From Acidobacteriota bacterium (GTDB lineage Bacteria > Acidobacteriota > Polarisedimenticolia > Gp22-AA2), in NCBI GenBank assembly GCA_018606725.1, contig JAGYID010000005.1, positions 1 through 54,309 on the forward strand: 54,309 nt of DNA. The letters are read 5' to 3'. Made by a program: the position numbers and the translations under genes. Positions 8,462-53,808 of the stretch are shown piece by piece. Position 1 is the stretch's first letter. The number at the start of each line of letters is the position of its first letter. The notes under the pieces were generated by a model, which saw nothing but the letters and a program-made list of their open reading frames with translations, did not search any database and had not been told where the DNA came from.

Positions 8462-8465
8462 CAGC

Positions 8466-12772: not shown

Positions 12773-12782
12773 GGCATCGGCG

Positions 12783-13539: not shown

Positions 13540-13577
13540 GCGGGGCTCGCCGGTGAACGATTCACAGAGGCGCAACG

Positions 13578-14174: not shown

Positions 14175-14214
14175 CGGACCGGCCGGGCCGCCCGGCCCGG
14201 CGGCCGCAGGCGGA

Positions 14215-14242: not shown

Positions 14243-14287
14243 CTCGCCGCACGTTGACGTGACCCATTCGCCAATCAGGAGGCCATC

Positions 14288-14581: not shown

Positions 14582-14611
14582 TCGCATCGCACCACACCCG
14601 GAGGACCCGGG

Positions 14612-16942: not shown

Positions 16943-17109
16943 CCCCCCGGCTCCCACGCCCCCTTCACAATCCTCGACCACGCCGTTCCACCTCCCGGAC
17001 TTGCCGGGGCCTGCCCTCTGGGCGAACATCCTCGCCGTTCGGGGCTCCTGCGATCGATGTCGATGCGAGGACTCCGGACGACGAGGAAGGGCCGGTGGAG
17101 ATTCGCCGC

Positions 17110-18012
17110 ATGTCCATGACAGCGAGAGGTGACGCGCCATGGCGGCGGCTCGCCGATGGGGCGCGGGCGGTCGGCGTCTGGCTGGCGCTCGCCTCGGTCG
17201 CCACCTGTCCGGTCACGGCCTCGCCCGCGCTTGCGCCGCCGCCGGCGCCAACGCGCGTCGACGTGCGCACCTCCCGGGGCGACTTCGAACTGATGGTCTA
17301 CCGGCCCGCCAGTCAGGCGCCGCCGGCCGAGGCTTCGGCCGGCCGGCCGCCGGCGGGCGCTGCGGCGGGCCCTGCGCCGGCGGTGCTGTTGATCTCCGGG
17401 GAGGGGGGGTGGGCGAGCTTCGTCGACCGCGTCGCGGGGATGCTGGCGGGCGAGGGGTACTGGGTCGGCGGGCTCGACGCGAAGCGGTACTTCGCAGAGC
17501 CTCAGGATGACCGCGGGGCGCTCGCCGCCGACGTGCGGATCTACGCCGACGCCCTGCTCAGGGCGGCGGGTCGCCCGGCCGGATCGCCTTTGGTTCTCGC
17601 CGGCTTCTCGTTCGGGGCCGACGTGGCGCCCCGGGTCGCCGCCGATCCCGGCTGGGGCGGACGGGTGCGCGGTCTCCTGTTGATCGCCCCCGACGCGATC
17701 GGCAGCCTGCAGTACCGGCTGCTGGAGATGATCGGCATCGAGTACACCGATCACACGTTCGAGGTGGCCGCGGCGCTGCGCGAGGCCGCCGGCATCCCGA
17801 TGCTGTTCGTGCACGGAGAGAACGATGGATCCTCGGCGGCGCCGGCGCTGGCGCAGGGGGCGGCCGAGCCGAAGCGGCTGAGCGTCGTCCGCGGCGCCGG
17901 TCATCATTTCTCGGGACTGGACGATCGCCTCAAGGCGACGCTGCGCGATGGCCTCGGCTGGCTGCTGCAGCAGTCGCCGCGGCCGCGCGCCGACGGCGGG
18001 ACCCGACCATGA
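17110..18012 (+). CDS. VirJ-like alpha/beta hydrolase, exported
   Basis: Protein of 300 residues in the VirJ/AcvB hydrolase family. A signal peptide spans about residues 15-40. The core has SGEGGW (96-101), the nucleophile elbow GFSFG (165-169, Ser167) and a late GAGHHF that supplies the His. Related AcvB of Agrobacterium is known to hydrolyse lysyl-phosphatidylglycerol. The ATG at 17110 is chosen because GGAG lies about ten bases upstream; a second ATG two codons later is possible. Its stop overlaps the start of mprF (ATGA), so both are almost surely one operon. Predicted to act in the periplasm on aminoacylated lipid, by context and homology only. Confidence 0.82.
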   Translation: MSMTARGDAPWRRLADGARAVGVWLALASVATCPVTASPALAPPPAPTRVDVRTSRGDFELMVYRPASQAPPAEASAGRPPAGAAAGPAPAVLLISGEGGWASFVDRVAGMLAGEGYWVGGLDAKRYFAEPQDDRGALAADVRIYADALLRAAGRPAGSPLVLAGFSFGADVAPRVAADPGWGGRVRGLLLIAPDAIGSLQYRLLEMIGIEYTDHTFEVAAALREAAGIPMLFVHGENDGSSAAPALAQGAAEPKRLSVVRGAGHHFSGLDDRLKATLRDGLGWLLQQSPRPRADGGTRP

Positions 18013-20630
18013 CGGAACCGGCCCCCGGCGAAGAGCTGCCGAGCGCCGCGCTGCCCGAGCCGCAGCGGCTGCGGCTGTTCCTGTCGAGGTCGGTGGAGGC
18101 GCTGCGACCGATCTGGCCGTGGCTCATCCTCGCGCTGATCGCCTGGGTCGGCTGGCACGAGCTGCGGCAGGTGGATGTCGGGACGGTGCGCGGTCTCCTG
18201 CGCGACGCCGACCCGACGCTCATCCTGATCCTGCTGGGCGCCACGGCGGCGAACCTGGCGGTCTTCGGACTGTACGACGTCGCCGCGCTCGGACCGCGCT
18301 CGCAGCCGCCGCCGCTGGCGGCGCGCTGGAAGGTCGGCGTGCTCAGCTTCGCGTGGAGCAACTTCCTGACCTTCGGCCCGCTGGCCGGCCCGGCGCTGCG
18401 CCTGTGGCTGTACCGGCCGATCGGGGTCGAAGGGGAGCGGGCCCGCTCGGCGCTGGCCGCGGTCCTGTCGGCCCTGTCGCTCGCCCTCCTCGGCTGGTGC
18501 GGCGCGGTCTGGATGCCGCTGCCGGCCGCCATCGACGGCTTCCCGGCCCGGCTCGGCGCGGGGGTCGTTTTCGCCGCCCTCGCGGCGGCGATCCTCCGCC
18601 TCCTGCCGCGACTGCGTTTCGCCCCCGCCCTGATCCGTCGCTGGGAGGCGCGTACCCTGCTCCTGTCTGCGGTCGCCTCGCTCGACTGGTTCCTGGCCTG
18701 GGTGGTGTTCGACCTGGCGCTCGACGGCCTGCACGGCGGGATCGATCAGAAGCTCTCCATCACCGCTTTCTTCACCGGCCAGCTGATCGGCCTGATGAGC
18801 TTCACCCCGGGCGGTCTCGGATCGGCGGATGCCTGGTGGATCGTGTCGCTGAGCGGCGTCGCGGGCGGGCACGATCGGGTGCTGGCGGCCCTCGTCTTGT
18901 ACCGCTGCATCTATTACGTCCTGCCCTGGGCGGTCGCGAGCCTGGTGCTGGCCGGCCGCCTGGTCCGGACCGGCCCCAACATCAATGCCGTCCTGCGCGC
19001 CAGCGTGGCGTCCTACGCCTTCCTGTGCGGCGTCGTGCTGCTCGCCAGCGCGGCCACGCCGTCGCTGTCCGACCGGGCGGCGTTCCTGATGCACACCGTG
19101 CCGGTGGCGCTGGTCGAGATCTCGCACGCCGCCTCGGTGGTGCTCGGCTTCCTGCTGCTGGTGATCTCCCGCGGTCTGGTGCGCGGCTACCGGGCCAGCC
19201 ATCGCCTGGCGCTGGCGCTGTTCGTCGCCGGCGCGGTCACCACGTTCCTGAAGGGGCTCGATTTCGAGGAGGCGATCCTGTCCCTCGCGGCGGTGGCGAT
19301 CCTGCTGGTCGCCCACCGGCCGTTCGAGCGCGAGGGACGGATGCGGCCGTCGACCGAATTCATCGTCTCGGTCGGTACGTTCGCGGTCGTGCTGTTTGCC
19401 GCCGTCGGGTTCGGCTCGTTGTCGCACGTGCCGCGGCTGCCGCTGGTGTTCACCCGCTTCGAGCACTTCGCCTACGGCGCGCGGTTCCTCCGCGGTCTGC
19501 TGATCCTGGCGGCGATGGCGGCGGTCGCCGGGCTGCACTTCGCGCTGCGCGCCCGGCCGCGCGATCCGCTGCCCGACGCCGTGGCGATCGACCGGGCCAT
19601 CGAGGAGACGCGCGCCTGGAGGCGCGGCACCAACCCGCTCCTGGTCGCCTCGGGCGACAAGGCAATCTTCCGGGCAGCGCGCCCCGCGGAGGGGTTCATC
19701 GCCTACCGCACCGCCGGCCGCTTCATGGTCGCGTACTCCGACCCGGTCTGCCCGCCGGGCCGGGAGCGGGCGCTCCTGGCCGCCTTCCTCGAGCACGCCT
19801 CGGCCTGGGACCGGGATGTCATCCTCTACCAGATCGCCCCGGCGACGCTGCCGGTGGCGCACGACTTCGGCTTCACGTTCTTCAAGCTCGGCGAGGAGGG
19901 GCTCGTCGATCTGGCGCGCTTCGACCTGAAGGGGAACAAGGCCAAGTCGTGGCGCCACGCCATGAACAGCGTCGAGAAAGAGGGGGGGCGATTCGAAGTC
20001 GTGCCGGCGGCGGAGGTCAAGGCCCTCCTGCCGGAGCTGCGCGCCATCAGCGACGACTGGCTCGCCGAGAAGCACGTCGTCGAGAAGCGTTTCTCGCTCG
20101 GCCGCTTCGAGGAGACGTACCTGACGCGGACCCCCTGCGCGGTGGTGCGCGACGCCGCCGGCCGGGCGGTCGCCTTCGCGAACCTGCTCGAGGGGGCGCC
20201 GCAGGATGAGCTGTCGGTCGACCTGATGCGTTACAGCGCCCGCCGCGAGCAGGCGGCCGGCCTGCGCGACGTGATGGACTACCTGTTCCTGCAGCTGATG
20301 CTGCACGGCAAGGAGCGCGGCTATGCCCGCTTCAACCTCGGCATGGCGCCGCTGGCATCGGTGGGCGAGGAGCGCTGGGCCCGGCCGTTCGAGCGCTTCG
20401 CGCGCCTCGTCTTCCGGCACGGCGAGCACTGGTACAACTACCAGGGCCTGCGGCGCTACAAGGAGAAGTTCGATCCGATCTGGGAGCCGCGCTACATGGC
20501 GTACCAGCACCCGTGGGACTGGCCGCTGGCCAGCACCACGACCGCGGCGCTGATCGCCGGCGGCTGGCGGGCGCTGCTGCTCCCCGGCGGCGGACAAGAG
20601 GCGTCAGCCGGCAGCGGGCACGCGGCGTGA
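18009..20630 (+). CDS. mprF: MprF-type aminoacyl-phosphatidylglycerol synthase/flippase
   Basis: Protein of 873 residues with the full two-part MprF layout. The first 550 or so residues are a polytopic membrane domain, including FTPGGLGSADAWW, that moves the modified lipid across the membrane. The C-terminal 280 residues are the cytoplasmic transferase that uses aminoacyl-tRNA, with FNLGMAPL and YQGLRRYKEKFDPIWEPRY as family marks. Lysine or alanine as the amino acid cannot be told by eye. The ATG overlaps the preceding hydrolase stop, and its own stop overlaps the next hydrolase start (GTGA). Making aminoacyl-PG lowers surface negative charge and gives resistance to cationic peptides and acid in known systems. 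Confidence 0.93.
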   Translation: MTEPAPGEELPSAALPEPQRLRLFLSRSVEALRPIWPWLILALIAWVGWHELRQVDVGTVRGLLRDADPTLILILLGATAANLAVFGLYDVAALGPRSQPPPLAARWKVGVLSFAWSNFLTFGPLAGPALRLWLYRPIGVEGERARSALAAVLSALSLALLGWCGAVWMPLPAAIDGFPARLGAGVVFAALAAAILRLLPRLRFAPALIRRWEARTLLLSAVASLDWFLAWVVFDLALDGLHGGIDQKLSITAFFTGQLIGLMSFTPGGLGSADAWWIVSLSGVAGGHDRVLAALVLYRCIYYVLPWAVASLVLAGRLVRTGPNINAVLRASVASYAFLCGVVLLASAATPSLSDRAAFLMHTVPVALVEISHAASVVLGFLLLVISRGLVRGYRASHRLALALFVAGAVTTFLKGLDFEEAILSLAAVAILLVAHRPFEREGRMRPSTEFIVSVGTFAVVLFAAVGFGSLSHVPRLPLVFTRFEHFAYGARFLRGLLILAAMAAVAGLHFALRARPRDPLPDAVAIDRAIEETRAWRRGTNPLLVASGDKAIFRAARPAEGFIAYRTAGRFMVAYSDPVCPPGRERALLAAFLEHASAWDRDVILYQIAPATLPVAHDFGFTFFKLGEEGLVDLARFDLKGNKAKSWRHAMNSVEKEGGRFEVVPAAEVKALLPELRAISDDWLAEKHVVEKRFSLGRFEETYLTRTPCAVVRDAAGRAVAFANLLEGAPQDELSVDLMRYSARREQAAGLRDVMDYLFLQLMLHGKERGYARFNLGMAPLASVGEERWARPFERFARLVFRHGEHWYNYQGLRRYKEKFDPIWEPRYMAYQHPWDWPLASTTTAALIAGGWRALLLPGGGQEASAGSGHAA

Positions 20631-37780: not shown

Positions 37781-38645
37781 GAACCGGTCCTGGTCCTCGG
37801 GCGGACGGCTGGACCTCGATCGAATCGCAGCCGACCTCGCCGCCGCCGATGCCGCCACCGCCTGCCGGGCCCTCGACCGGCTGGGACCGCGTCTGCATCG
37901 GCTGCGCGAGCCGGAGCACCACCGGGCCATCGAGATGGTCTGCAGCCTGCTGTACATCGACGCCATCGACCGGCCGGACTTCGAGGAGGTGCTGCAGCGC
38001 GCCATGGACGTCCTGGCCGACCAGGGGGCCCGCGTCATCCCGGCGCTTCTGGATCAGATGCGCGGCAGCGACATCAAGTCGCACACCTACCTGGCCCGCA
38101 TCCTGGCCATGATGGGAGACCCGGCGCTGCCCCGCCTGCGCAACGCGATCGCCACGGCCGACGACCCCTACGTCAGGACCTTCGCGTTGTATGCGCTCGG
38201 GAAGATGACCTGCCGGAGCGTGGCCCGCGCGCTGCCGGAGGTGATCGGCAGCCTCATGCATCCCGACCGGGAGGTACGCGACTCGGCGGCGCGCACGCTC
38301 GGGAAGATCGCCACCGTCGTGCCGCGGCGCCTGCTGACGCCGCGCCGCCGCCGGGAGATGTTCGAGACGCTCGTGCGCGCGGTCCGCGACGTGCAGCCGG
38401 CGGTGCGCGCCAAGGCGATGCGCAGCCTGGGGAAGATGGCGGCGGCCGGTCTCCTCAACGGCCGCCAGCGGAGCGCCCTCGAGACGTCGGCGCGCGCCGC
38501 CCTCGGCGAAGCGGATGTCTACGCCTGGGACAACGCCTACATCGTCCGGCGCGAAGCGCGCGAGACCCTCGATCGCCTCGCCTCCGGCCCCGCGGCGCCC
38601 GCAGCGCGACCCCGCCGGACGCCCCGACCGACCGCTAGTTTTTGA
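37770..38645 (+). CDS. HEAT-repeat protein
   Basis: Protein of about 291 residues built of helical HEAT/PBS-lyase-like repeats (DDPYVRTFALYALGKM, DREVRDSAARTLGKIA, QPAVRAKAMRSLGKMA). It has no catalytic motif and probably binds a partner. A TTG at 37770 with GGAGC/GGGAGC upstream is the proposed start, overlapping the previous gene by 11 bases; this start is not certain. Its end overlaps the convergent tricorn gene by 11 bases. Context suggests it serves the Nfn/rubrerythrin pair, but that is a guess. Confidence 0.75.
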   Translation: MSAKNRSWSSGGRLDLDRIAADLAAADAATACRALDRLGPRLHRLREPEHHRAIEMVCSLLYIDAIDRPDFEEVLQRAMDVLADQGARVIPALLDQMRGSDIKSHTYLARILAMMGDPALPRLRNAIATADDPYVRTFALYALGKMTCRSVARALPEVIGSLMHPDREVRDSAARTLGKIATVVPRRLLTPRRRREMFETLVRAVRDVQPAVRAKAMRSLGKMAAAGLLNGRQRSALETSARAALGEADVYAWDNAYIVRREARETLDRLASGPAAPAARPRRTPRPTASF

Positions 38646-41600
38646 CGGGCGGCGGCGGCACCGGCGGCAGGGCCTTCGGGTTCCCGCGGATCGCCTCCAT
38701 CACGACCTCGATCCCCTTCTCGAGCTGCGGGTCGCGTCCCTTGACGACGAGGTCGTCGCGGTTGTCGACCTCGATGTCGGGGTCGACGCCGTGTCCCTCG
38801 ATGATCCACCGGCCCTCGAGGCCGTAGGTCCCGAATTCGGGACGCGTCACGTAGCCGCCGTCCACCAGCGGCGAATAGCCGCGGATCCCGACGACCCCTC
38901 CCCAGGTGCGCGTCCCGATGAGCGGCCCGAGCCCGTATTTCCTGAAGAAGTACGCGAACACGTCGCCATCGGATGCCGAGTAGTGGTTGATGAGGCAGAC
39001 CATCGGCCCGTAGAAGGCCTGCGACGGGTAGGTGCTGATGCCGCCGTTGCGGCTGTTCCCCAGCCCCGCCAGCACGCGGCGCAGGCGCTCCAGGATCATC
39101 TCGGAGACGAATCCGCCGCCGTTGTTGCGGACATCGATGATCAGCCCCTGCTTGCGGATCTGGGGGTAGTACTGGCGGACGAACTCGTTCAGACCCTCGC
39201 CGCCCATGTCGGGGATGTGCACGTAGCCGACCGTCCCGCCGGTCGCGCGGTCCACCTTCAAGCGGTTGGTCTCGATGCGGTCGAAGTAGCGCAACCCCCC
39301 CTCGTCGGCCAGCGGGCGGACGGTGACGCGCCGCGCGCCCGCCTCGTCGGGCCGGTTGCTGACGGTCAGGGTCACCGTGCCGCCGGTCCGGTTCTCCAGC
39401 AGCTGATCGGGGGTCCGCGGCGGCCTGAGATCGATTCCGTCGATGGCGAGGATGAACGATCCCTCCGGCACGCCGATGCCCGGCTCGGTGAGCGGGGAGC
39501 GCCGCGCCTCGACCCAGTTCTGCCCCTGCAGGACGCGCGCGATGCGAGTCCGGCCGCTCTTCGGATCGAGGGCGTAGTCGGCGCCGAGGAGGGCGATCGG
39601 CACCGTCTTCGCCTTCGGCATGTCGCCGCCGCCGACGTAGGCATGGCCGGCGCTGAGCTCGCCGATCAACTCGCCGATGAGGTAGGTCAAGGCGCTGCGG
39701 TGGGCGACATCGGGGAGCAGGGCGCCGTACTTCCGTTTCATCGCCGGCCAGTCGACCCCGTGCATGTTGGGGACATAGAAGAAGTCGCGCTCCAGCCGCC
39801 AGGCCTCGTCGAAGATCTGGCGCCACTCGGCCGGCGGGTCGAGATCCATCGACATGCCGTCCAGCTTGAGGGCCCCTTCCCCGACCTTGACGGGCGCCGC
39901 GCCGGGCTTCGCGTCGATGATGCCGTACTGCTTCCCGGCGGCGTAGATTGCCTTGCCGCCGTCGGCCGACAGCTCGTACTCGCCGATGTCGGCGATCAGC
40001 GCGGCATCCTTGCGGTCGTCCAGATTGAAGGCGTGCAGGACGCTCTTCGGCTCCTCGTCTCCCCCCTCGTTGAGGGTGGGGGACGGATCGGCCACGTAGT
40101 AGACGGCGGTCCTGGTCGCGCTGAGATGCGACAGGGTCCCCGGCTCGATCGGGAAGACGGCGATGCGCGCCTCGATGCCGTCGAGGTCGATCCGGATCGG
40201 CGCGAGCCCTTTCGGGGCCTCCTTCCCCGCGGCGCCGGTCTTCTTCTCCTTCTCCTCCCCGCCGATCGTGACCTCGTCCGACTCGGGGGCGAAGGGCGAT
40301 GGCAGGTCGGCGCGCAGCGTCAGGGCGTAGATCCGGGTCGTGTTGTTGTAGACGTAGCTGAGATCGAATGCGCCGATGCTGGCGTTGAGGTCGCGATCCG
40401 AGAGGAAGTAGAGGTACCGCCCGTCCGGGTCGAAGACCGGGCTGCCGTTGTCGGTCATCTCGGATGTGACCCGGGTGACCGTCCCCTTGTCCAGCGAGTA
40501 CAGGTACACCTGGCGCATCTGCTGCGGGTCCTGCTTGGTGTAGGCGAGCCAGCGGCCGTCCGGGGACCAGGCGTAATCGCGGATCTCCGCCTCCTTCGCC
40601 CGGTCGGCCTGCGTGACCCTGCCGCTCGCGATGTCGACCACGAACAGCCTGAGATCCTTGTCGGCGAACGCGAGCGACCGGCTGTCGGGGGACCAGACGG
40701 GCGGGAAGCGCCAGCCGTGGCCGTCGGCCGTCAACCGGCGCGCCGGGGCGGACCGGTCCTGGGGGCCGATCCAGATCTCGTCTTCGCCGGTCTGATCGGA
40801 GAGCCAGGCGATCGACCGGCCGTCGGGCGACCAGGCGGCGCCGCGCTCGTGCGCCCCGGAGGTGTTGGTGAGATTGCGCGTGTTCCCCTTCTCCGCCGGC
40901 ACGGTCAGGATTTCGCCGCGCGCCACGAACAGCGCCCGCTTGCCGTCCGGCGACAGGCCGAACTCGGTGATCGCCTCGGCCAGCGGGATCTGACCGGGGC
41001 GGGCCGCCAGCCGCTCGGACGGCACCCTGATTTCGACCCTCGCGGATTTGCCGGCCGCGAGATCGTAGAGGTAGATGGCGCCGCCGTTCTCGTAGACGAT
41101 GCCGCCCGGGCCGCCGCTCGCCCAGCGGACATCGTAGTCCCGATGATCGGTCAGCTTGGCGACCGATTTGGTGAGCGGGTCGACCGAGAACAGGTTGCAC
41201 ACCTTGTCGCGGTCGGAATCGAAATAGATCCGGTCGCCGATCCAGATCGGCTCGGTCGAGATGTTGTCGTTCTCGGTGAGCTTCTCCAGCGCGTTGCCGG
41301 GGATGTCGTAGATCCAGAGGTTCTGCGTCATGCCGCCGCGGTACCGCTTCCAGGTCCGGAAGTTGCGCCAGATCCGGTTGTAGACCAGCTTCCGACCGTC
41401 GGGCGAGAAGGCGGCGAGCCCTCCCTCCGGCATCGGCAGCGCCTCGGGAAGCCCGCCGTCCAGCCCGATGGTGAACAGCCGTCCGGAACGGTCCTCCCAC
41501 GCCTGGTGCCGGGATCTGAACAGGATGCGCGTCCCGTCCGGGGTCCAGCCGATCACCATGTTGTTGGGCCCGGCCCTCTCGCTCGGCTGGCCGGTGTCGG

Positions 41601-41943
41601 TCCAGAAGGTGAGCCGCTTCGGCACGCCCCCCTCGGCGGGGATGACGTAGACGTCGCGGTTGCCATCGTACTGACCGGTGAACGCAATCCATCGGGAGTC
41701 CGGGGAGTAGCGCGGCATGATTTCCAGCCCCGCATCCGAGGTGAGGCGCCGGGCCGTCCCGCCCTGGCGCGGCACCGTCCATATGTCGCCGGCAAAGGTG
41801 AAGGCGATCGAGTCGCGGGACAGCGTCGGGAACTGCAGCAGCCGCGTCGCCGCGTCATCGGCCGGGGCGGCGGCGAACGCGCTCAGGGACAGGACGGCGA
41901 TGGCGGTCAGCGGGACGGATCGACGGAACGGCGCGCGGCGCAT
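38635..41943 (-). CDS. Tricorn-type serine protease (S41), exported
   Basis: Protein of 1102 residues with a signal peptide ending near SAFAAAPADD. Residues 35-560 form PD40/TolB-like propeller blades (YSPDSRWIAF, SPDGKRALFV, SPDGRSIAWL). A PDZ-like segment and the S41 catalytic core follow. Candidate catalytic residues are the His in LSAGHAYVGG, the Ser in NHYSASDGD, and a Glu after RTWGGVVG. Tricorn proteases trim peptides; this one would act in the periplasm, unlike the archaeal cytosolic enzyme. The ATG at 41943 has GAGGAG upstream and a good promoter at 41974-42002. Confidence 0.93.
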   Translation of the reverse strand: MRRAPFRRSVPLTAIAVLSLSAFAAAPADDAATRLLQFPTLSRDSIAFTFAGDIWTVPRQGGTARRLTSDAGLEIMPRYSPDSRWIAFTGQYDGNRDVYVIPAEGGVPKRLTFWTDTGQPSERAGPNNMVIGWTPDGTRILFRSRHQAWEDRSGRLFTIGLDGGLPEALPMPEGGLAAFSPDGRKLVYNRIWRNFRTWKRYRGGMTQNLWIYDIPGNALEKLTENDNISTEPIWIGDRIYFDSDRDKVCNLFSVDPLTKSVAKLTDHRDYDVRWASGGPGGIVYENGGAIYLYDLAAGKSARVEIRVPSERLAARPGQIPLAEAITEFGLSPDGKRALFVARGEILTVPAEKGNTRNLTNTSGAHERGAAWSPDGRSIAWLSDQTGEDEIWIGPQDRSAPARRLTADGHGWRFPPVWSPDSRSLAFADKDLRLFVVDIASGRVTQADRAKEAEIRDYAWSPDGRWLAYTKQDPQQMRQVYLYSLDKGTVTRVTSEMTDNGSPVFDPDGRYLYFLSDRDLNASIGAFDLSYVYNNTTRIYALTLRADLPSPFAPESDEVTIGGEEKEKKTGAAGKEAPKGLAPIRIDLDGIEARIAVFPIEPGTLSHLSATRTAVYYVADPSPTLNEGGDEEPKSVLHAFNLDDRKDAALIADIGEYELSADGGKAIYAAGKQYGIIDAKPGAAPVKVGEGALKLDGMSMDLDPPAEWRQIFDEAWRLERDFFYVPNMHGVDWPAMKRKYGALLPDVAHRSALTYLIGELIGELSAGHAYVGGGDMPKAKTVPIALLGADYALDPKSGRTRIARVLQGQNWVEARRSPLTEPGIGVPEGSFILAIDGIDLRPPRTPDQLLENRTGGTVTLTVSNRPDEAGARRVTVRPLADEGGLRYFDRIETNRLKVDRATGGTVGYVHIPDMGGEGLNEFVRQYYPQIRKQGLIIDVRNNGGGFVSEMILERLRRVLAGLGNSRNGGISTYPSQAFYGPMVCLINHYSASDGDVFAYFFRKYGLGPLIGTRTWGGVVGIRGYSPLVDGGYVTRPEFGTYGLEGRWIIEGHGVDPDIEVDNRDDLVVKGRDPQLEKGIEVVMEAIRGNPKALPPVPPPPVKN

Positions 41944-42934: not shown

Positions 42935-42962
42935 TGTATCACCGCAGCGGCGCGGTTTTCAA
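42935..42962 (-). promoter_or_regulatory. Possible promoter for lsrF
   Basis: On the minus strand, TTGAAA (42962-42957), 16-base spacer, GATACA (42940-42935). The -35 contains the TGA stop codon of the Rrf2 gene. The -10 is a modest match. It would give a leader of about 35 bases. Confidence 0.4.
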
Positions 42963-43396
42963 GTGGCGACGCGGCGCCGGCGGGCGGCGCTCCGCCCGCC
43001 GGGCGCCAGGTCGAGGAGCGTCGTGCGCCGCGACCAGGCGTGGAACGCACCGCTGAGACCGGACCACGAGTCGTGCAGGGGGCACGGATCGCGGCGGTCG
43101 CAGCGGCCGTCGCCGAACACGCACAGGTCGCGCTCGAGGGAGCCGCCGGCCGCCTCCAGGACCTCGCTGAGGCGGGTGGCGCGCAACGGCCGTGCCAGCC
43201 GGTAGCCGCCGCCGTGTCCCTTGATCGCGTGCAGCAGACGGCGCGCCGTCAACCGGCGCATGATCTTGGACAAATAGGCCGGCGGCACCCCGGTCGCCCG
43301 CGACAGGTCGCGGGCCCGCACCCGGCTGCCGGCGGGCAGCGCCGCCAGGTGCATCAGCGCCCGCAGCGCGTACTGGGCGGTCTGGTTGACGTGCAT
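42959..43396 (-). CDS. Rrf2-family transcriptional regulator with Fe-S ligands
   Basis: Protein of 145 residues. The winged-helix N-terminus has QTAQYALRALMHLA and GVPPAYLSKIMRRL, the usual Rrf2 pattern. Three Cys and a His near 92-108 (CVFGDGRCDRRDPCPLHD) match the IscR/NsrR-type cluster site, so it may sense Fe-S status, oxygen or nitric oxide. The ATG at 43396 has no ribosome site, but TACGAT ends six bases upstream; the mRNA could be leaderless. It diverges from the corrinoid gene and is the likely regulator of one or both directions. The C-terminus is Arg-rich. Confidence 0.88.
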   Translation of the reverse strand: MHVNQTAQYALRALMHLAALPAGSRVRARDLSRATGVPPAYLSKIMRRLTARRLLHAIKGHGGGYRLARPLRATRLSEVLEAAGGSLERDLCVFGDGRCDRRDPCPLHDSWSGLSGAFHAWSRRTTLLDLAPGGRSAARRRRVAT

Positions 43397-43439
43397 GGTG
43401 GAATCGTAGCACGTCGCCGTGCGCCGCGCGGGCGCGGCC

Positions 43440-43469
43440 TTGACCGTCCTCGGAGGGCGCCCGTAAGAT
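43440..43469 (+). promoter_or_regulatory. Sigma70-type promoter for the corrinoid operon
   Basis: TTGACC (43440-43445), 18-base spacer, TAAGAT (43464-43469). The start would be near 43476, about 29 bases before the ATG at 43505. It lies in the divergent gap with the Rrf2 regulator gene. Confidence 0.5.
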
Positions 43470-43504
43470 AGCGGATGCACTGGTCTCTTGAGAGGGGAGG
43501 GACG

Positions 43505-44182
43505 ATGGATGGGGCGGCGCTGTACGGCGCGATCCGCGCCGCGGTGGTCGAGGGTGATGCCGAGCGGGCGGGGGCGCTGGCCGGCGAGGCGCTCCGGGCC
43601 GGGCTGGATCCGCTGGAGATCCTCGACCGCGGCTTCACCTCGAGCCTGCGTCACGTCGGCTCCTGCTGGGAGAAGGGCGAGCTCTACCTCCCCGAGATGA
43701 TGCTGGCGGCCGAGGCGGTGAAGGCGGGGCTCGCGGTCCTGAAGCCGCGCCTGAGCGCCGCCGGCGCCTCGAAGGCGGGCGGCGCGGCGCCGCTGGTGTG
43801 CGTCATGGGCACCGTCGCGGGGGACATTCACGACATCGGCAAGAACATCGTCGGCACGCTGCTCGAGGCGATCGGCGTCCGGGTCGTCGACCTGGGCACC
43901 GACGTCGAGGCGTCGCGGTTCGTCGGTGCGGTACGCGAGCACGGCGCGAACCTGGTGGGGATGTCGGCGCTGCTCACCAGCACCATGCCGGCGATGCGGC
44001 AGGTCGTCGAGGCGCTCGAGGCGGCCGGTCTGCGCCGGGGCGTGCGGATCGCCGTCGGCGGCGCGCCGGTCACCAAGGCGTTCGCGCAGGAGATCGGCGC
44101 CGACGGGACGGCGGCGGACGGCATGGGGGCGCTGCGGCTGTTCCAGTCGCTGGCGGCGAAGGAGGTGCCCGGTGCGGTTTGA
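43505..44182 (+). CDS. Corrinoid (B12-binding) methyl-carrier protein
   Basis: Protein of 225 residues of the MtbC/MttC/MetH-domain type. A helical N-cap (about 1-90, with GELYLPEMMLAAEAVK) precedes the Rossmann B12 domain. That domain carries GDIHDIGKNIV, whose His is the lower cobalt ligand, and SALLTSTM and GGAPVT. It carries a methyl group between a substrate-specific methyltransferase and a second enzyme. The ATG at 43505 has GGGAGGG upstream. Its stop overlaps the next gene by 11 bases, and that gene encodes the likely methyl donor enzyme. Cytosolic. No corrinoid activase is seen in the window. Confidence 0.92.
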   Translation: MDGAALYGAIRAAVVEGDAERAGALAGEALRAGLDPLEILDRGFTSSLRHVGSCWEKGELYLPEMMLAAEAVKAGLAVLKPRLSAAGASKAGGAAPLVCVMGTVAGDIHDIGKNIVGTLLEAIGVRVVDLGTDVEASRFVGAVREHGANLVGMSALLTSTMPAMRQVVEALEAAGLRRGVRIAVGGAPVTKAFAQEIGADGTAADGMGALRLFQSLAAKEVPGAV

Positions 44183-45575
44183 GGCGCTGACCGGACAGGA
44201 GACGAAAACGGTCCATCGGGCGGCGCTCCAGATCCTCGAGGAGGTCGGATTGCACCTCCCGCCGGCCTCGACCCTGGCGGGACGGCTGCGCGAGGCGGGA
44301 TTGCAGGTGACGCCCGAGGGGCGCCTGCACCTGCCGGCGTCCTTCATCGAGGCGGCGCTCGCGAAGGCGCCCCGCGTGGTGCGGCTGGGCGGCCGCGACG
44401 GCCGGGAGACCGCCGTCCTCGACGGCCGGCGCACCTTCATCACCACCGACGGGTGCGGCGCCTGGACGATCGATCCGGAATCAGGGGAACGGCGCGCCTC
44501 GACCCTCGACGATGTCGCCAGGAGCGCCCGGCTGACTGATGCGCTCGAGCACTACCAGGTCTACTGGATGATGGTGAGCGCCGGCGACGCGCCGCTGCCC
44601 CTGCGCACGGCGCGCGAGTACCTGACCGCGGCCCGGAACACCACCAAGCACGTGCAGATGATCGACGTGCACCGTCCGGAGGAGGCGGCCGCCATCGTGA
44701 AGATGGCACGCGCGCTGCGGGAGAGCGGCGCCGCGACGGACGCGCCGGTGTCGATGCTCAACAGCGTCGTGTCGCCGCTGCGGCTCGACCCGGGCGGCTG
44801 CGAGGCCGCCCTGGCGTTTGCGGCCGCCGGCCTGCCGGTGGCCGCCTGCAGCATGCCGATCGCCAGCGTCACTGCGCCGGCCACGGCGCCCGGCTCGCTG
44901 CTGATGTCGCACGCCGAAATCATCGGCTTCACCGCCCTGGTCCAGACGCTCTACCCGGGGGCGCCGGTCATCTACACCGGCTTCCCGGCCTTCGCCGACG
45001 CGCGCACCGGCATCACCAACTACCGCGACCCGCGGCGCTGGTGGGCCGCCGCGGCGGCGACCCAGATGGGACAGAGCGTCCGCCTGCCGGTGTTCACCTC
45101 GGGAGAGCTGGCCTCGCTGCTGGAGCATCCGGACATGCTGTGCTTCGGGGGACTGCTCGAGGTGTCGACCGTCCTGTCTTTCGAGCAGCTGGTCATCGAC
45201 CACGAGATCGTGCGCGACATGCTGCTGTCGGCCGCGCCGCAGCCGGTCGACGACGAGACGCTGGGGGTCGACGCCGTCCGCGAGGTGGGGCCGGGCGGTC
45301 ACTTCCTGTCGCGCCGGCACACCCTGCGCCACATCCGCGAGTTCGTGGTGCCGAAGTTCTCGGAGCCGGCGCGCCCGGTCGAGCGGGCGGAGCAGGATGC
45401 CGCGCGCGGCAGCCCGGGGGACGCGGCGCGCCGCGAGGCGCTCCGCCTGATCGCCACGCACGCCGTCCCGCCGATCGACGCGCGCGCCGCCGCCGCGATG
45501 GAGCGTGTCGCGGACGGCCCGGAGCCCGCCCGGCCCGAGACCCGGGCTAGAAGTTCACCACCAGCGAAGTCGTGA
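44172..45575 (+). CDS. MttB-family methyltransferase without pyrrolysine
   Basis: Protein of 467 residues of the trimethylamine methyltransferase (MttB) family. Marks include TDGCGAWTID, SMLNSVVSPLRLD, YTGFPAFADARTG and the HFLSRRHT...REF end region. There is no in-frame TAG where true MttB places pyrrolysine, so it belongs with the non-pyrrolysine branch. Characterised members of that branch (MtgB, MtpB, MtcB) demethylate quaternary amines such as glycine betaine, proline betaine or carnitine. The GTG at 44172 has GGAGG six bases upstream. The actual substrate is not readable. The C-terminal Ala/Arg-rich tail overlaps the convergent DUF481 gene by 29 bases. Confidence 0.88.
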   Translation: MRFEALTGQETKTVHRAALQILEEVGLHLPPASTLAGRLREAGLQVTPEGRLHLPASFIEAALAKAPRVVRLGGRDGRETAVLDGRRTFITTDGCGAWTIDPESGERRASTLDDVARSARLTDALEHYQVYWMMVSAGDAPLPLRTAREYLTAARNTTKHVQMIDVHRPEEAAAIVKMARALRESGAATDAPVSMLNSVVSPLRLDPGGCEAALAFAAAGLPVAACSMPIASVTAPATAPGSLLMSHAEIIGFTALVQTLYPGAPVIYTGFPAFADARTGITNYRDPRRWWAAAAATQMGQSVRLPVFTSGELASLLEHPDMLCFGGLLEVSTVLSFEQLVIDHEIVRDMLLSAAPQPVDDETLGVDAVREVGPGGHFLSRRHTLRHIREFVVPKFSEPARPVERAEQDAARGSPGDAARREALRLIATHAVPPIDARAAAAMERVADGPEPARPETRARSSPPAKS

Positions 45576-47166: not shown

Positions 47167-48402
47167 ATGAGACATAACCTCGCGCGCATGACCGGCGTCA
47201 CGGCCGAAACGATCCTCGTCAACCTCGTCGTCATCGTCTCCGTTGTCTTCGTCGTCACTGCCGGCGGCGCCTGGGTCGGCTGCGGGCCGGGCGGCGCGCG
47301 GCAGGCCGGCGGCGCCGCGCCGCTGCAGCAGATCGGGCCGGGCGAGGGCGCCGTGTCGATCATCTCCTGGGCCGGCTACATCGAGCGCGGCGAGAGCGAC
47401 CCGAACTACGACTGGGTCACCGGCTTCGAGAAGGAGACCGGCTGCGCGGTCAGCGTCAAGGTGGCCGCCACCTCCGACGAGATGGTCGCGCTGATGAACG
47501 AGGGAGGCTTCGACCTGGTGACGGCGTCCGGCGACGCCAGCCTGCGGCTGGTGTCGGGAGGACGGGTGCAGCCGATCAACACGGCGCTCATCCCGTCGTG
47601 GAGCAGCATCGACCCGCGGCTGCAGAACGCCCCCTGGCACACCGTCGACGGGACGCATTACGGCGTGCCCTATCAGTGGGGATCGAATGTCCTCGCCTAC
47701 AACACGAAGGTCTTCACGACGCCGCCGAAATCGTGGGATGTCGTGTTCGAGGCGATGACGCTCCCGGACGGCAAGCCGAACAAGGGGCGGGTGCAGGCGT
47801 TCGACGGGCCGATCTACCTCGCCGACGCGGCGCTCTATCTGATGGCGCACCGGCCGGAGCTCGGGATCACCGACCCGTACGCGCTCGATCGCCCACAGTT
47901 CGAAGCGGCGATCGCGCTGTTGCGCCAGCAGCGGAAGCTGGTCGGCCGCTACTGGCACGACGCCATCGCGCAGGTGGATGATTTCGTCAACGAGGGGGTG
48001 GTGGCCAGCTCGTCGTGGCCGTTCCAGGTGAATCTTCTAAAGAGCAAGGGCGCCCCGATCGCCAGCGTCATCCCCTCGGAGGGCGCCACCGGCTGGGCCG
48101 ACACGACGATGCTGCACGTCGGCGCGCCGCACCCGAACTGCGCCTACCGATGGATGGAGCACTCGCTGTCGCCCAGGCTTCAGGGCGACCTCGCCGCCTG
48201 GTTCGGGTCGGTGCCGGCGGTGCCGGCGGCCTGCGACGGGAACGCGCTCCTCGGCGCGCAGGGGTGCGCCACCAACGGTGCCGGCAACTTCGATCGGATC
48301 CGGTTCTGGCGGACTCCGGTCGCCCGCTGCGGCGAAGGGCGCGACTGCGTGCCGTACCACGAGTGGGTGACCAGCACCATCGCGGTCATCGGCGGCCGCT
48401 GA
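47167..48402 (+). CDS. potD: PotD-type periplasmic solute-binding protein
   Basis: Protein of 411 residues of the spermidine/putrescine-binding family. A long hydrophobic N-terminus with a possible lipobox Cys39 (WVGCG) suggests it is exported or lipid-anchored. The binding-lobe marks are [35 protein letters not shown] and [11 protein letters not shown]. The N-terminal substrate motif is a little unlike classic PotD, so polyamine specificity is probable but not certain. The ATG at 47167 has AAGGAGGT upstream. It starts an operon with ATPase, two permeases, a decahaem cytochrome and a beta-barrel. Confidence 0.87.
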
Positions 48403-48425
48403 GCGCCGCGACGCGGGCGGGGGAG

Positions 48426-49466
48426 ATGGCAGGGGAGCGGGCCCCGGTCGTGCGGTTCATCGGGGTCAGCCGGCACTTCGGTTCGCTGCGGGCCGTCGAC
48501 GACGTCAGCCTCGACATCGCCGACGGCGAATTCTTCTCGATGCTCGGGCCGTCCGGCTCGGGCAAGACGACCTGCCTGCGGCTGATCGCCGGCTTCGACC
48601 GGCCGACCTCCGGCCGCATCCTGCTGCACGGCCTCGATGCGGAGCGCCTGCCGCCCTTCGAACGCGACGTCAACACGGTGTTCCAGGACTACGCCCTGTT
48701 TCCCCACATGACGGTGGAAGAAAACGTCGCCTATGGCCTGGCGATCCGGAACGTGCCGCGCGCCGAGCGCCGGCGACGCGCCGGCGAGATGCTGGAGCTG
48801 GTGCGCCTGCCGGAGGTCGCGTCGCGCCGCCCGGGGCAGCTGTCGGGGGGCCAGCGCCAGCGGGTCGCCCTGGCCCGGGCGCTGGTCAACCGCCCGCGCG
48901 TCCTGCTGCTGGACGAGCCGCTCGGCGCGCTCGACCTGAAGCTCCGCCAGCAGATGCAGATCGAGCTGAAGGCGATCCAGGAGCGCCTGGCGATCACCTT
49001 CGTCTACGTGACGCACGACCAGGAGGAGGCGCTGGCGATGAGCGACCGCCTCGCCGTCTTCCGGGAGGGGCGGGTCGATCAGGTCGGGACTCCGGCCGAG
49101 GTCTACGAGCGGCCGGCCACCCCGTTCGTCGCCGACTTCGTCGGCACCTCCAACCTCATCGAGGGACGCCTGGCGGAGCGTCTCGCGGGCTCGCCGGCGC
49201 CGTGCACCATCCGGCCGGAGAAGATCCGGATCGTCGCGGCGGCGGCGCCGGTCGCGGGGGGCGACGGTGCGGTGGACGGGACGATCCGCGATGTCGTCTA
49301 CCTCGGCAGCCACACGCGGTACCGGGTCGAGGTCGGCGAGGGGGTCGTGCTGGTCGTCGTCGAGCTGAACCGCGCGACCACCGCCGTCGACGCGCACGCG
49401 GCGCGCGGACGACCGGTCCGCCTGGCGTGGGCGCGCGAACACCTCCGGCCGGTGGGCGGCCGATGA
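48426..49466 (+). CDS. potA: PotA-type ABC transporter ATPase
   Basis: Protein of 346 residues, the ATP-hydrolysing subunit. Walker A is GPSGSGKTT, the signature is [15 protein letters not shown], Walker B is [11 protein letters not shown] and the switch His is in [13 protein letters not shown]-type C-terminal domain (about 270-340, [10 protein letters not shown]) follows as in PotA/FbpC. The ATG at 48426 has GGGGGAG directly upstream. Its stop overlaps the next permease start (ATGA). Confidence 0.93.
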
Positions 49467-50389
49467 GGTCGACGCGTCGATCACCGGGCCGGGCCGCGGC
49501 GACCTTCCTGTTCCTGCGGCCGCGTCTGGCGCTCGGCCTGCTGCTGGCGCCGCCGCTCGCCTGGCTCGGGGCCGTTTACCTGGGCTCGCTGGCGTCGCTG
49601 GTGGTGCAGAGCTTCTTTCATCTGGATGGCTTCACCGGTCAGGTGATCCGGAAATTCACCTTCGCCACCTGGCGGGATCTCATGACGCCCGCCAACTTCG
49701 ATATCGCATTGCGCACCGCGACCATGGCGGCGGCGGTCACGGTGGCGGCGGCGCTGCTGGCGTTCCCGCTGGCCTATTACATGGCGCGCTACGCCTCGCC
49801 CGCCGTCAAAGCGGTCCTGATGGTCGGGGTCCTGCTGCCGCTCTGGTCGAGCTACCTGGTGCGGGTCTACTCCTGGAAGCTGATCCTGGCGAAGGAGGGT
49901 GTTTTCGCCTGGTTCGTCGGGCAGGCGGGACTCACCTGGCTGCTCGAGCGCGTGCTCGCGCTTCCTGTCATTGGGGGGCCGTCGCTGTCGGTCTCGTCGC
50001 TCGGGACCTTCCTCGCCTTCCTGTACGTCTGGCTGCCCTACATGATCCTGCCGATCGAGGCGGCGCTGCAGCGCGTGCCGCGCTCGCTGGTGGAGGCATC
50101 CGCCGATCTCGGGGCCCGCCCGGCGCAGACCTTCCGGCGCGTGACCCTGCCGCTGGCGCTCCCGGGCGTCATCGCCGGATCGATCTTCACCTTCTCGTTG
50201 ACCCTCGGGGATTTCGTGGTGCCGAGCGTCCTGGGGAACTCCAGCCTGTTCATCGGCCAGGCGGTGCTGGCCCACCAGGGGACGGCCGGCAACATCCCGC
50301 TGGCGGCGGCGTTCACGGTCATCCCGATGGCGATCATGGGCGCCTACCTGCTTTTCGCCAGGAGACTCGGGGCGTTCGATGCGCTTTGA
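49463..50389 (+). CDS. potB: PotB-type ABC permease
   Basis: Inner-membrane permease of 308 residues with six or so helices. The coupling loop [25 protein letters not shown] contains the EAA motif that contacts the ATPase. [14 protein letters not shown] and a [10 protein letters not shown] stretch are typical of PotB. It overlaps potA by four bases and potC by 11. Pairs with PotC to form the channel. Confidence 0.92.
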
Positions 50390-51209
50390 GCCGGCCGCGT
50401 CGCAAGGTCGCGAACGGGCGCCGGCGGCGCTGAAGCTGGCGGTGGCCGGGGTCCTGCTGTTCCTGCACCTGCCGTTCGCGATCATCGTGCTGTATGCCTT
50501 CACCACCGACGACGCCTCGTACCGCTTCCCGCCGCCGGGGCTGACGCTCGACTGGCTGCAAGTGGCCTGGAACCGCCCGGATGTCTGGCAGGCGCTCGGT
50601 CTGTCGCTGCGGGTCGCCGCCGCGGCGACCGCCGCGGCGCTGGTCCTGGGCACGCTCGCCGCCGCGGCCGTGCACAAGAGCCGCTTCTTCGGCCGCGAGG
50701 CGCTGTCGTTTCTGCTGATCCTGCCGATCGCCCTGCCGGGGATCGTCACCGGCATCGCGCTGCGTTCGGCGATGAGCCTGGCGTCGATCCCGTTCTCGTT
50801 CTGGACCGTCGTGGTCGGCCACGCGACTTTCTGCGTCGTCGTGGTCTACAACAACGTCCTGGCCCGTTTGCGGCGCACGCCGGCCTCGCTGGCCGAGGCG
50901 TCGATGGATCTCGGCGCTACGCCGCAGCAGACCTTCCGCCGGATCCTGCTGCCGCACCTGGCGACCGCCCTGGTCGCCGGCGGCATGCTGGCCTTCGCCC
51001 TGTCGTTCGACGAGATCATCGTGACGACCTTCACCGCCGGGCAGCAGCAGACGCTGCCGATCTGGATCTACGCCCAGCTCAGCAAGCCGAGGCAGCGCCC
51101 GGTCACCAACGTCGTCGCGGTGTTCGTGGTGCTGACCACGGCCGTGCCGATCCTGCTGGCCCATCTGCTGACGCGGGACAAGGGCGGGGGGATCGCCGGA
51201 GAGCGGTGA
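50379..51209 (+). CDS. potC: PotC-type ABC permease
   Basis: Inner-membrane permease of 276 residues, partner of PotB. It has an EAA loop ([18 protein letters not shown]) and [15 protein letters not shown], a segment characteristic of PotC. Its stop overlaps the start of the decahaem cytochrome gene as GTGA, which links the transporter to the electron-transfer genes by translation. Confidence 0.92.
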
Positions 51210-52132
51210 TCTTCCGGCACATGGCATGTCCTTCGCTAGCCTCACGACCGCGGGAGGCCCATTACTTGCGAAGACTCGCAGGCCGGTTGTCCCCCCCGAT
51301 GCTCGCGGCGCTGGCGTTCGCAGGTCTGGCGCTGACGCCGCCGGCGGCGGCCGCCGAGCAGGCAGGCGAACCGCCCTACCCGCACGGCTCCTATGTCGAG
51401 GACTGCGGCCTGTGCCACGAGGCGCAGGGCTGGAGGCCGGCGCGCCCCGGTCCGCAGTTCAACCACGCGAAATATTTTCGGCTGGAAGGTGCCCACAGGA
51501 CGGCGGCGTGCAACGGCTGCCACAAATCGCTGAAGTTCGACGCGGAGAAAACCAAACAGGACTGCGTCGACTGTCACGGCGACCCCCACATCGGCGAATT
51601 CGGTCCCGATTGCGCCCGCTGTCACACGACGGTGAGCTTCATCGACCAGGCGCGGATGCGGCGGGCGCACATCCTGACCCGCTTCCCGCTCGTCGGCGTT
51701 CACTACGCGGCTGACTGCGACACCTGCCACCCGCCGCAGGCGCAGGGTCACCTCAGGTACGTCAACACCCGCACCGACTGCGTCGCCTGCCACCTGGACG
51801 ATTACCTGGGCACGACCAACCCTAACCATCAGGCGGCTAATTTGTCGCAGGACTGCAACCAGTGCCACTTCCAGACGACCTGGCTGCCGGCGCGCTTCCC
51901 GGGACACGACTCGCTGTACTTCCCGATCTCCACCGGGACGCACCGCGGCAAGTGGACCTATTGCAGCGAGTGCCACTACCAGCCGGGCTCCTACACGATC
52001 TTCTCCTGCATCCTCTGTCATGCGCACAGCGATTCGGCGCAGCTGGCCAACAAGCACTCGGGAGTCGGGGGGTACCAGTACACCAACACCTCCTGCTACA
52101 CCTGCCATCCGAGCGGGCAGGCGGACGACTGA
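51206..52132 (+). CDS. Decahaem c-type cytochrome, periplasmic
   Basis: Protein of 308 residues with ten CxxCH motifs: CGLCH, CNGCH, CVDCH, CARCH, CDTCH, CVACH, CNQCH, CSECH, CILCH and CYTCH. An N-terminal signal peptide ends near PPAAAAEQ. Ten haems in about 270 mature residues is the same number and a similar size to MtrA/PioA, the periplasmic half of porin-cytochrome conduits. The GTG at 51206 overlaps potC; an ATG at 51221 is possible. The next gene is a beta-barrel that begins one base into this stop. Equivalence with MtrA is an inference from haem count and context; a soluble electron shuttle is the alternative. Confidence 0.92.
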
Positions 52133-53808
52133 TGAGAGCGACCAGAATCGCCTTGGCGCTCGTGGCGCTCGTCACGGTGCCGGCGCCATCGCCCCACGCC
52201 CGGGCCCAGGACGCGCCGCCGCCGGCCGCGGCCCCGGCGACCGCGGCCCAGGTGCCTGCGGCCCCGGCGCCCGCAGCCCCGGCGACGGCGCGCATCACCT
52301 ACGTCACCGGCACGTCGATCTATCTCGACGCGGGGCGGCAGGAGGGGATCAACGAGGGCGACACCATCGAGGTCATGCGCGACGGACAGATGATCGCGAC
52401 GCTTCGTGTCGCCTACCTGTCGGAGCACAGCTCCTCCTGCACCATCGTCGGCGTCTCGGAGCCGCCGGCGGTCGGCGATGTCGCGCGCTACACGCCGCGC
52501 GCGCCGTTGACGGGCGCCGCGGGCGCGACCGCGCCGGGCGAGGTGGCGGGCCCGGGCTCCGGCGCCGGAGCGGCGCCGACCGCGACGCGGAGCCGGTTCA
52601 GCGGGCCGGGTCTGCACGGGCGTGCGGGGGTGCGCTATCTCGTCGTGCGGGACACCGGCAACGCCGACAACGGCTATACGCAGCCGTCGCTCGACCTGCG
52701 GCTCGACGGCGAGGGGCTCGGCGGCAGCGACTTCGACCTGAACGTCGACGTCCGGGCGCGGCAGACCTACCGGAACTGGCCGGGGTCCGAGGACCAGCGG
52801 CTCGACCGCGTCTACCGGCTGTCGACGACCTACCGTTTCCCGGACCGCCGGCAGCGGCTCACCGTCGGGCGCCAGTTCGCTCCGAACCTCGAGGCGGTGA
52901 ACATCTTCGACGGGGCTCTCTATGACATCGACGGCGGGCGGTGGGGTGCCGGGTTCTTCGCCGGCACGCAGCCGGACCCGACCGACTTCGGCGTCGACGG
53001 CACCGTCACGGAGTACGGCGGCTACTACCTCGTTCACAGTCGCGCGCCGGAGGCGAAACAATGGGCCGTCACGCTGGGGCTGATCGATTCGTATGCCGAG
53101 GGGGACGTCAACCGGGAGTGGTTCTATCTACAGGGGCGCTACCGCGGCCCCCGGCTCAACGGTTTCGTGACCTCGGAGATCGACTACAACCGTTCCTGGA
53201 AAGTCAGCGAAGCGGGTGAGAGCACCGTCTCGCCCACCAGCACGTTCGCGACCCTGCACTTCCGGGCCAGCGAGCACGTCAGTCTGCGCGCCGGGTACGA
53301 CAACCGCCGCAGCGTCAGGCTGTACCAGGACCGCGTGACCCCTGCGACCACGTTCGATGACGCCTACCGGCAGGGGGGCTGGGCCGGGGCTTCGTTCAGG
53401 TTCGGCAGGCATTTCGGCATCGGCGCGGACGCGCGCGTCAGCACCGGCGGCCCGGCCGGCCGGGCCGACGGCTACTCGGGCGACCTCGCGTGGGACGGCG
53501 TCGGCGGCGCCAATTTCGGGTTCAGCCTGCGCACCACCCGCTACGGCAACGATCACAGCGACGGCTGGCTTTACACCCTGATCGGCGGGTGGGACCTCGG
53601 CCGGCGCTGCCGCATGGATCTGTCGGTCGGCCGGGTGGAAGAGACCGACACGGAGGATACGGCGCTCGACCGCTCCGACGACTGGTACGGCATCGACCTG
53701 AATATCGTGATGGGGCGGAGCTGGTTCGCGATCGTGTCGTGGGAGCGCTACACCGGTACCTTCAACGACAACGACCAGGGGTACGTCGCGGCGACCTACC
53801 GCTTCTAA
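52132..53808 (+). CDS. Outer-membrane beta-barrel with N-terminal periplasmic domain
   Basis: Protein of 558 residues. A signal peptide ends near HARAQDAPP and is followed by an Ala/Pro linker. A small beta domain (about 53-115, ITYVTGTSIYLDAGR to GDVARYTP) precedes a second linker. About 400 residues of amphipathic strands then run to a terminal Phe (VAATYRF), the usual barrel-insertion signal. It overlaps the decahaem gene stop by one base (TGATG), so the two are coupled. It could sheathe the cytochrome as MtrB or PioB does, although sequence similarity to MtrB cannot be judged by eye. Confidence 0.85.
   Translation: MRATRIALALVALVTVPAPSPHARAQDAPPPAAAPATAAQVPAAPAPAAPATARITYVTGTSIYLDAGRQEGINEGDTIEVMRDGQMIATLRVAYLSEHSSSCTIVGVSEPPAVGDVARYTPRAPLTGAAGATAPGEVAGPGSGAGAAPTATRSRFSGPGLHGRAGVRYLVVRDTGNADNGYTQPSLDLRLDGEGLGGSDFDLNVDVRARQTYRNWPGSEDQRLDRVYRLSTTYRFPDRRQRLTVGRQFAPNLEAVNIFDGALYDIDGGRWGAGFFAGTQPDPTDFGVDGTVTEYGGYYLVHSRAPEAKQWAVTLGLIDSYAEGDVNREWFYLQGRYRGPRLNGFVTSEIDYNRSWKVSEAGESTVSPTSTFATLHFRASEHVSLRAGYDNRRSVRLYQDRVTPATTFDDAYRQGGWAGASFRFGRHFGIGADARVSTGGPAGRADGYSGDLAWDGVGGANFGFSLRTTRYGNDHSDGWLYTLIGGWDLGRRCRMDLSVGRVEETDTEDTALDRSDDWYGIDLNIVMGRSWFAIVSWERYTGTFNDNDQGYVAATYRF

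Follow-up and report, generated by a model that had tools for sequence, protein, structure and literature searches.

A six-gene string in an acidobacterial contig

The stretch of DNA analysed here (54,309 nucleotides, guanine-cytosine (GC) content 70.7%), referred to as the window, is the entire contig JAGYID010000005.1 (C95) of an Acidobacteriota bacterium of the class Polarisedimenticolia (GenBank assembly GCA_018606725.1), whose genome (G000), probably a metagenome bin, comprises 3.74 Mb across 235 contigs. Six plus-strand open reading frames at positions 47167-53808 encode the binding protein, the ATPase and the two permeases of an ATP-binding cassette (ABC) importer, followed by a multihaem cytochrome and an outer-membrane barrel. 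An earlier inspection of this DNA without database searches, hereafter the sequence-only reading, had described a PotABCD-like importer coupled to a porin-cytochrome-like pair and had suggested that the two might share a substrate. The six genes are assigned as follows:

47167..48402, plus strand: YdcS-like periplasmic solute-binding protein (NF041888 YdcS, 605 bits, cut-off 725; SBP_bac_8)
48426..49466, plus strand: PotA/YdcT-like ATPase (ABC_tran and TOBE_2; TIGR01187 potA, 366.5 bits, cut-off 355.6)
49463..50389, plus strand: PotB/YdcU-like permease (BPD_transp_1; PotH/PotB profiles best, below cut-offs)
50379..51209, plus strand: PotC/YdcV-like permease (BPD_transp_1; PotC profile best, below cut-off)
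51206..52132, plus strand: ten-haem c-type cytochrome (10 CXXCH; Cytochrome_C7; alternative starts 51221 and 51299)
52132..53808, plus strand: outer-membrane barrel with 22 predicted strands and an N-terminal FlgT_C/SH3-like domain (assigned from a second copy on contig C233, a structural model and a tree)

All six frames are coding by score, and all except the barrel reach a Pfam cut-off. The binding protein and ATPase genes are separated by 23 bases, and the subsequent overlaps of 4 (ATPase/potB), 11 (potB/potC), 4 (potC/cytochrome) and 1 (cytochrome/barrel) bases, already noticed in the sequence-only reading, are confirmed in the reading frames, with a caveat for the cytochrome, the start of which is uncertain and may be 51206, 51221 or 51299. 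The four-base potC/cytochrome overlap follows from taking the GTG at 51206 as the start; by eye, GGAGAG is found directly 5' of this GTG and before neither ATG 51221 nor ATG 51299. A gene caller that uses codons only places the cytochrome start at 51299 and the barrel start at 52162, with which the final two overlaps would vanish. A promoter and a terminator separating the pair from the importer, considered in the sequence-only reading, were not found: from potC to the barrel start, the signal scan of the window yielded nothing resembling either a promoter or a terminator. The scan did give a promoter-like match within the barrel gene (53033) and a terminator-like match within the ATPase gene (48517), the latter at chance level, with three such matches found in total versus 2.4 expected by shuffling.

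The cytochrome contains exactly ten CXXCH motifs. Outside these motifs, ten histidines are kept in 13 or all of the 14 rows of an alignment, providing one candidate distal ligand per haem, and the window copy has all of them; one further histidine (residue 243) is conserved in the 10 rows of this alignment that have the position. Ten free histidines for ten haems would suggest that every haem is bis-histidine-ligated and none left free for catalysis, which would make the protein more of a wire than an enzyme. AlphaFold2 models the barrel with 22 strands behind a small N-terminal beta domain (mean predicted local distance difference test score (pLDDT) 72, predicted template-modelling score (pTM) 0.59), and the match of the barrel to FlgT_C scores 23.6 bits, below the cut-off of 27. 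A Foldseek search with this model returned generic barrels only (ushers, OccK, AlgE and others) at low template-modelling scores, so no fold is claimed beyond "barrel". Sequence searches of the PDB gave nothing meaningful for the barrel (best E 0.18) and a weak NrfH match only for the cytochrome (E 0.005). For the cytochrome, AlphaFold2 gave a low-confidence model (mean pLDDT 43), which was discarded. The description of these two genes as a porin-cytochrome-type pair is borne out. Like MtrAB, MtoAB and PioAB, the pair combines a decahaem cytochrome with an outer-membrane barrel, but the barrel has no match to the MtrB_PioB domain (PF11854), and the cytochrome matches neither the DmsE/MtrA decahaem profile TIGR03508 nor any other NCBIfam model at E 0.001. 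Within the same genome, MtrB_PioB matches are found on contig C108 only, where a separate MtrB/PioB-type barrel of 804 residues lies with a decahaem cytochrome of 323 residues (L126, 7155-10559); these genes are a candidate for a further outer-membrane conduit of this bacterium.

The pair and the importer in related genomes

Gene order was compared in 41 genomes of the class, the source genome included, and in 396 genomes of the phylum. In the class, matches were found for the cytochrome in 12 genomes, for the barrel in 13, one of them with no more than a weak fragment (G015, E 6.6e-4), and for the inner-membrane protein described below in 12. Barrel matches, several of them weak, occur in 29 of the 396 phylum genomes, and for those outside the class, stretches from ten genomes were taken in. 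The resulting scan covered 43 loci, 42 of which contain a barrel; eight loci (L098, L099, L100, L101, L102, L105, L107 and L123) each repeat a contig already present under another handle, which leaves 34 distinct barrel loci, and four of these have at most 50 bases upstream, which leaves 30 testable for an upstream multihaem gene, defined by at least six CXXCH motifs in a single frame at most 1500 bases upstream of the barrel. Such a gene lies directly upstream of the barrel at 29 of the 30 loci. Homologues of the binding protein, PotB and PotC (tblastn, 1e-10, in the sequence stretches examined around each barrel) are present at one of the 34, the window itself. The gene-order comparison suggested in the sequence-only reading thus shows the pair mostly without pot genes and speaks against a single coupled system. 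Gene starts outside the window were taken from a codon-usage gene caller and are approximate; genes that it fragmented at lower-GC loci (e.g. L089, L091, L092, L095) were left out of the counts.

The importer, for its part, is found without the pair. At E 1e-60, the binding protein has matches in four of the 396 phylum genomes (G000, G011, G238 and G323). Within the class, three of 41 genomes have a match, one of them distant. Neither G011 (84% identity) nor G323 (75%) has a cytochrome or a barrel behind its four importer genes, the next gene in both lying on the opposite strand; the window PotC aligns with both orthologues to near its C-terminus, and the related barrel of G323 lies on a contig other than that of its importer. 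G238 is uninformative on the pair because its contig ends just behind the binding protein. The distant binding protein (31%), in G026, is accompanied by importer genes, with no cytochrome or barrel in the stretch examined, and was not counted as an orthologue.

A second copy of the pair in the same genome

Contig C233 of the source genome carries a second copy of the pair, with cytochromes 70% identical over 253 residues and barrels 68% identical. The genes on C233 are ordered as a 296-residue membrane protein, a 23-haem cytochrome, a 10-haem cytochrome, the barrel and an oxidoreductase with flavin adenine dinucleotide (FAD) and two [4Fe-4S] clusters, and no pot genes are present. The two copies are similar at the DNA level from 51338 to 53807, and the similarity is therefore confined to the cytochrome and barrel genes. 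A tree of 31 barrels places those of the window and C233 as sisters (support 100/100). A four-base overlap on C233 links an ATG of the 10-haem gene to the stop of the 23-haem gene, just as the GTG in the window overlaps the potC stop. The tetranucleotide correlation (r) of C233 with each half of the window is 0.96, compared with 0.98 for one half against the other and with 0.72-0.93 for eleven stretches taken from ten other genomes. The identities of 68-70%, the position of the two barrels as sisters in the tree and the limits of the similar DNA lead us to infer that the cytochrome-barrel pair was duplicated and placed behind potC. The relatives were recovered by an alignment-based scan; a scan of the genome contigs with single proteins found no relative, and a spaced two-haem DNA pattern, which was too strict, had no match in the genome.

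A comparable situation is seen in G016, where a cluster with the inner-membrane protein and a 23-haem cytochrome lies on contig C86; both in this genome and in G000 (on C233) the inner-membrane protein has a single match. A solitary second cytochrome-barrel pair, its repeat stretch broken by a run of N, occupies a short contig of G016, in another family (L053, C52, 1797-5290). The full C233 cluster (L049) spans 11409-18469, and in the larger stretch 6719-18469 it adjoins an HlyD protein with a heavy-metal-binding domain; a long gene beside it resembles, by eye, a resistance-nodulation-division (RND) pump.

Likeness of the C233 cluster to PCC3

The C233 cluster resembles PCC3, a predicted porin-cytochrome conduit described as comprising a porin, an extracellular multihaem cytochrome of highly variable haem number, a periplasmic cytochrome (median 21 haems) and, in the inner membrane, a protein of roughly 300 residues that has SGXXG in helix 4, WX3HX13H in helices 3 and 5 and two predicted b haems (He et al. 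2017, PMC5566968). Counterparts of all four components appear to be present on C233 and in its relatives. Five hydrophobic stretches are present in the 296-residue protein, which has SGXXG at residue 132 and WX3HX13H at residues 92 and 265; in the corresponding set of 25 rows (in which L062_4 and L107_9 are one entry given twice), 23 have SGXXG and both WX3HX13H motifs, the two misses, L066_0 and L061_1, being wrong picks, and a simple hydropathy scan gives two to five hydrophobic stretches. The periplasmic cytochrome has 23 haems on C233 and 20-23 in relatives. Both the ~21-haem cytochrome and the ~300-residue inner-membrane protein are absent from the window locus, which consists of the porin and outer cytochrome only, behind an ABC importer, and would therefore be a partial copy, the outer half, rather than a PCC3.

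The FAD/two-[4Fe-4S] oxidoreductase is an addition relative to PCC3 in most of the clusters found here. The order inner-membrane protein, oxidoreductase, 20/23-haem cytochrome, n-haem cytochrome and barrel occurs at 8 of 28 named loci, the rest being cut by contig ends or ordered otherwise. Plasmid searches with the inner-membrane protein and the oxidoreductase gave, among the matches followed, one PCC3-like cluster, in Bacteroidota: the same five genes in the same order, with 23-haem and 40-haem cytochromes, on plasmid pEMTOL02 of Emticicia oligotrophica DSM 17448. This cluster (L127, NC_018749.1, 11300-19996) adjoins a cytochrome c biogenesis gene. Porin-cytochrome complexes of the MtrB and ExtB/E types are described for Holophaga (Acidobacteria) in PMC7399161, and PMC13264449, which also deals with acidobacterial complexes, places a ferredoxin-NADP reductase gene near 7 of 11 complexes of one group. 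The open-licence literature yielded no paper on PCC3 in Acidobacteria with cytochrome, or in Gemmatimonadetes with porin and multiheme, and, at the level of titles, nothing evidently concerned with a porin-cytochrome duplication linked to an ABC transporter.

Haem number of the outer cytochromes

Among 20 outer cytochromes hand-picked as complete-looking, 18 contain 10+3n haem motifs, with n from 0 (the window and C233) to 11 (43 haems, L108), and the two exceptions (17 and 39 haems) each have one additional CX3CH motif. With small deviations, the CXXCH motifs are spaced by 36, 16, 16, 35, 21 and 25 in a head, by 32, 16 and 25 in each of n units, and by 35, 15 and 29 in a tail, so that the window cytochrome is the shortest form, with no internal three-haem repeats. 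Repeats of about 73 residues and three haems between fixed ends are seen at L064 (8431-11493, 40 haems) and L108 (6765-9980, 43 haems). Geobacter GSU1996 is a three-haem c7-type polymer. The tandem three-haem units are shared with such c7-type polymers (GSU1996, NCBIfam TIGR04257), and the L064 cytochrome scores 38 bits on TIGR04257 (cut-off 40); here, however, the repeats lie between fixed ends, the gene lies beside a barrel gene, and the window form is repeat-free. Repeats with haem sites are mentioned for PCC3 in PMC5566968. For the extracellular PCC3 cytochrome of Gallionellaceae, PMC10734462 gives 10-35 haems, including 11, 12, 14, 15 and 18, and 10-16 and 18 haems within one cluster, as opposed to the 10+3n series found here; the three-haem step therefore need not hold in that family.

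The importer

The importer is YdcSTUV-like, and its substrate is most likely putrescine or a similar polyamine. The binding protein, called potD in the sequence-only reading, scores 605 bits on the YdcS model, by far its best match, 54 on PotF and 38 on PotD, and is YdcS-like rather than a PotD; the polyamine type of the importer, as given in that reading, holds. Among solved structures, 6nlp is nearest to the binding protein in sequence (530 bits), and, judged by eye from its N-terminus, the protein is possibly a lipoprotein. The gene order in Escherichia coli is S-T-U-V. The window shares this order, a binding protein nearest to the YdcS model, a PotA-like ATPase and two permeases with YdcSTUV of E. 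coli, and differs in the score of the binding protein, which is under the curated YdcS cut-off, and in the cytochrome and barrel that come next. The E. coli system is treated as a putrescine importer in PMC8674398 and as "putative" in PMC7494812. Metal-chelate uptake was considered and rejected as lacking support (276 bits on the ferric ABC ATPase profile versus 378 on PotA). Directly upstream of the G323 importer lie a putrescine-aminotransferase-like gene, truncated where the contig begins (331 bits, cut-off 612), and a gene for an FAD amine-type oxidase below curated cut-offs; these neighbours, resembling amine catabolism, favour an amine over a metal chelate as the substrate, although they are no proof.

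Two probable modules in one gene string

We consider it quite probable that the string unites two unrelated modules, namely a YdcSTUV-like ABC importer and, behind it, a second version of the outer half of the PCC3-like conduit on C233, made up of the ten-haem cytochrome and the barrel. Chance gene order at this one locus, rather than a new machine common to both, seems to account for the pairing. The copying would have taken place in this lineage and brought the pair to a site directly after potC, whose stop overlaps the probable GTG start of the cytochrome. Electrons could then travel from the inner-membrane pool to the cell exterior, or the other way, via the C233 inner-membrane protein, with its two predicted b haems, and the 23-haem cytochrome, which would serve either outer half; the inner half on C233 thus probably also serves the window pair. 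The latter, perhaps co-transcribed with the importer, would provide a second outer route by which electrons could leave or enter, and no direct role of the pair in uptake would be required.

Several observations weigh against this interpretation. The overlaps and the absent terminator make one transcript likely and selection for joint expression possible. The barrel of G012 has no upstream multihaem gene, and at the class level the inner-membrane protein occurs without a barrel match in G013, and a barrel match without the inner-membrane protein in G030. The window's genus is represented in the genome set by G000 alone, which leaves a single genome for judging how old and how stable the arrangement is. 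The likeness to PCC3 was judged from published descriptions and motifs; PCC3 porins are mostly large, with up to 42 predicted strands (PMC5566968), versus 22 in the barrel here, and the function of PCC3 is itself predicted only, according to PMC12442390.

That the six genes form one functional system, in which the barrel passes a polyamine or a cytochrome-reduced metal chelate to the binding protein for uptake, would fit the overlapping same-strand genes with no terminator-like match from potC to the barrel, as well as the intact state of the pair with its ten haem motifs and ten conserved free histidines. We regard it as very improbable in view of the single barrel locus with pot genes, of the importer orthologues in G011 and G323 that lack the pair, of the 23-haem cytochrome and inner-membrane redox protein that accompany the pair elsewhere, and of the apparently all-bis-histidine wire, which would leave no vacant haem for catalysis. 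The shared substrate put forward in the sequence-only reading is likewise unsupported, since on C233 of the same genome the pair belongs to a larger cluster that lacks pot genes and the importers of G011 and G323 occur without the pair, and the version involving a metal chelate taken up after extracellular reduction fares no better, the G323 neighbourhood pointing to amines. It is also very improbable that the pair has been annexed to the importer, either with polyamine or nitrogen supply switching surface electron exchange through joint translation, or with the 22-strand barrel as an outer-membrane polyamine entry and the cytochrome as its plug or gate.

A stricter form of the two-module interpretation, and one compatible with it, holds that the adjacency is selectively neutral, with read-through translation and no regulatory meaning. 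This is possible, if tentative: the arrangement occurs once among the compared loci and the DNA similarity has its edges at the two genes, whereas ten CXXCH motifs and ten histidines kept at ~70% identity argue that the pair is used, though not that the linkage is. An assembly artefact joining the importer to a pair from a different place might be suspected in a probable metagenome bin of 235 contigs but is extremely improbable, as the copies, 68-70% identical, are too divergent for a collapsed repeat, the junction is a clean GTGA overlap preceded by a purine-rich stretch, and composition is fairly even, with a GC content at third codon positions of 0.94 in potC, 0.87 in the cytochrome and 0.92 in the barrel.

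What is new here is the variant PCC3-like cluster and the separately copied outer half; the importer is not. With two modules in place of one, the claimed importer-cytochrome machine is replaced by a checkable account. PCC3-like conduits with an added FAD/Fe-S oxidoreductase would extend over Acidobacteriota, Gemmatimonadota, Eisenbacteria and one culture-collection strain of Bacteroidota, and their outer half can exist as an extra separate copy, as in two genomes here. The outer cytochromes, with 10 to 43 haems in three-haem steps, would constitute a natural length series for relating wire length to electron transfer.

Other features of the window

Elsewhere in the window, positions 42959-45575 contain an MttB-type methyltransferase gene behind a gene that, by eye, resembles those of corrinoid proteins, and an Rrf2-regulator-like gene, also read by eye, lies beside the MttB-type gene on the opposite strand. 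A Tricorn-protease-like protein (PD40, Tricorn_C1, PDZ_Tricorn, Peptidase_S41) is encoded at 38635-41943.

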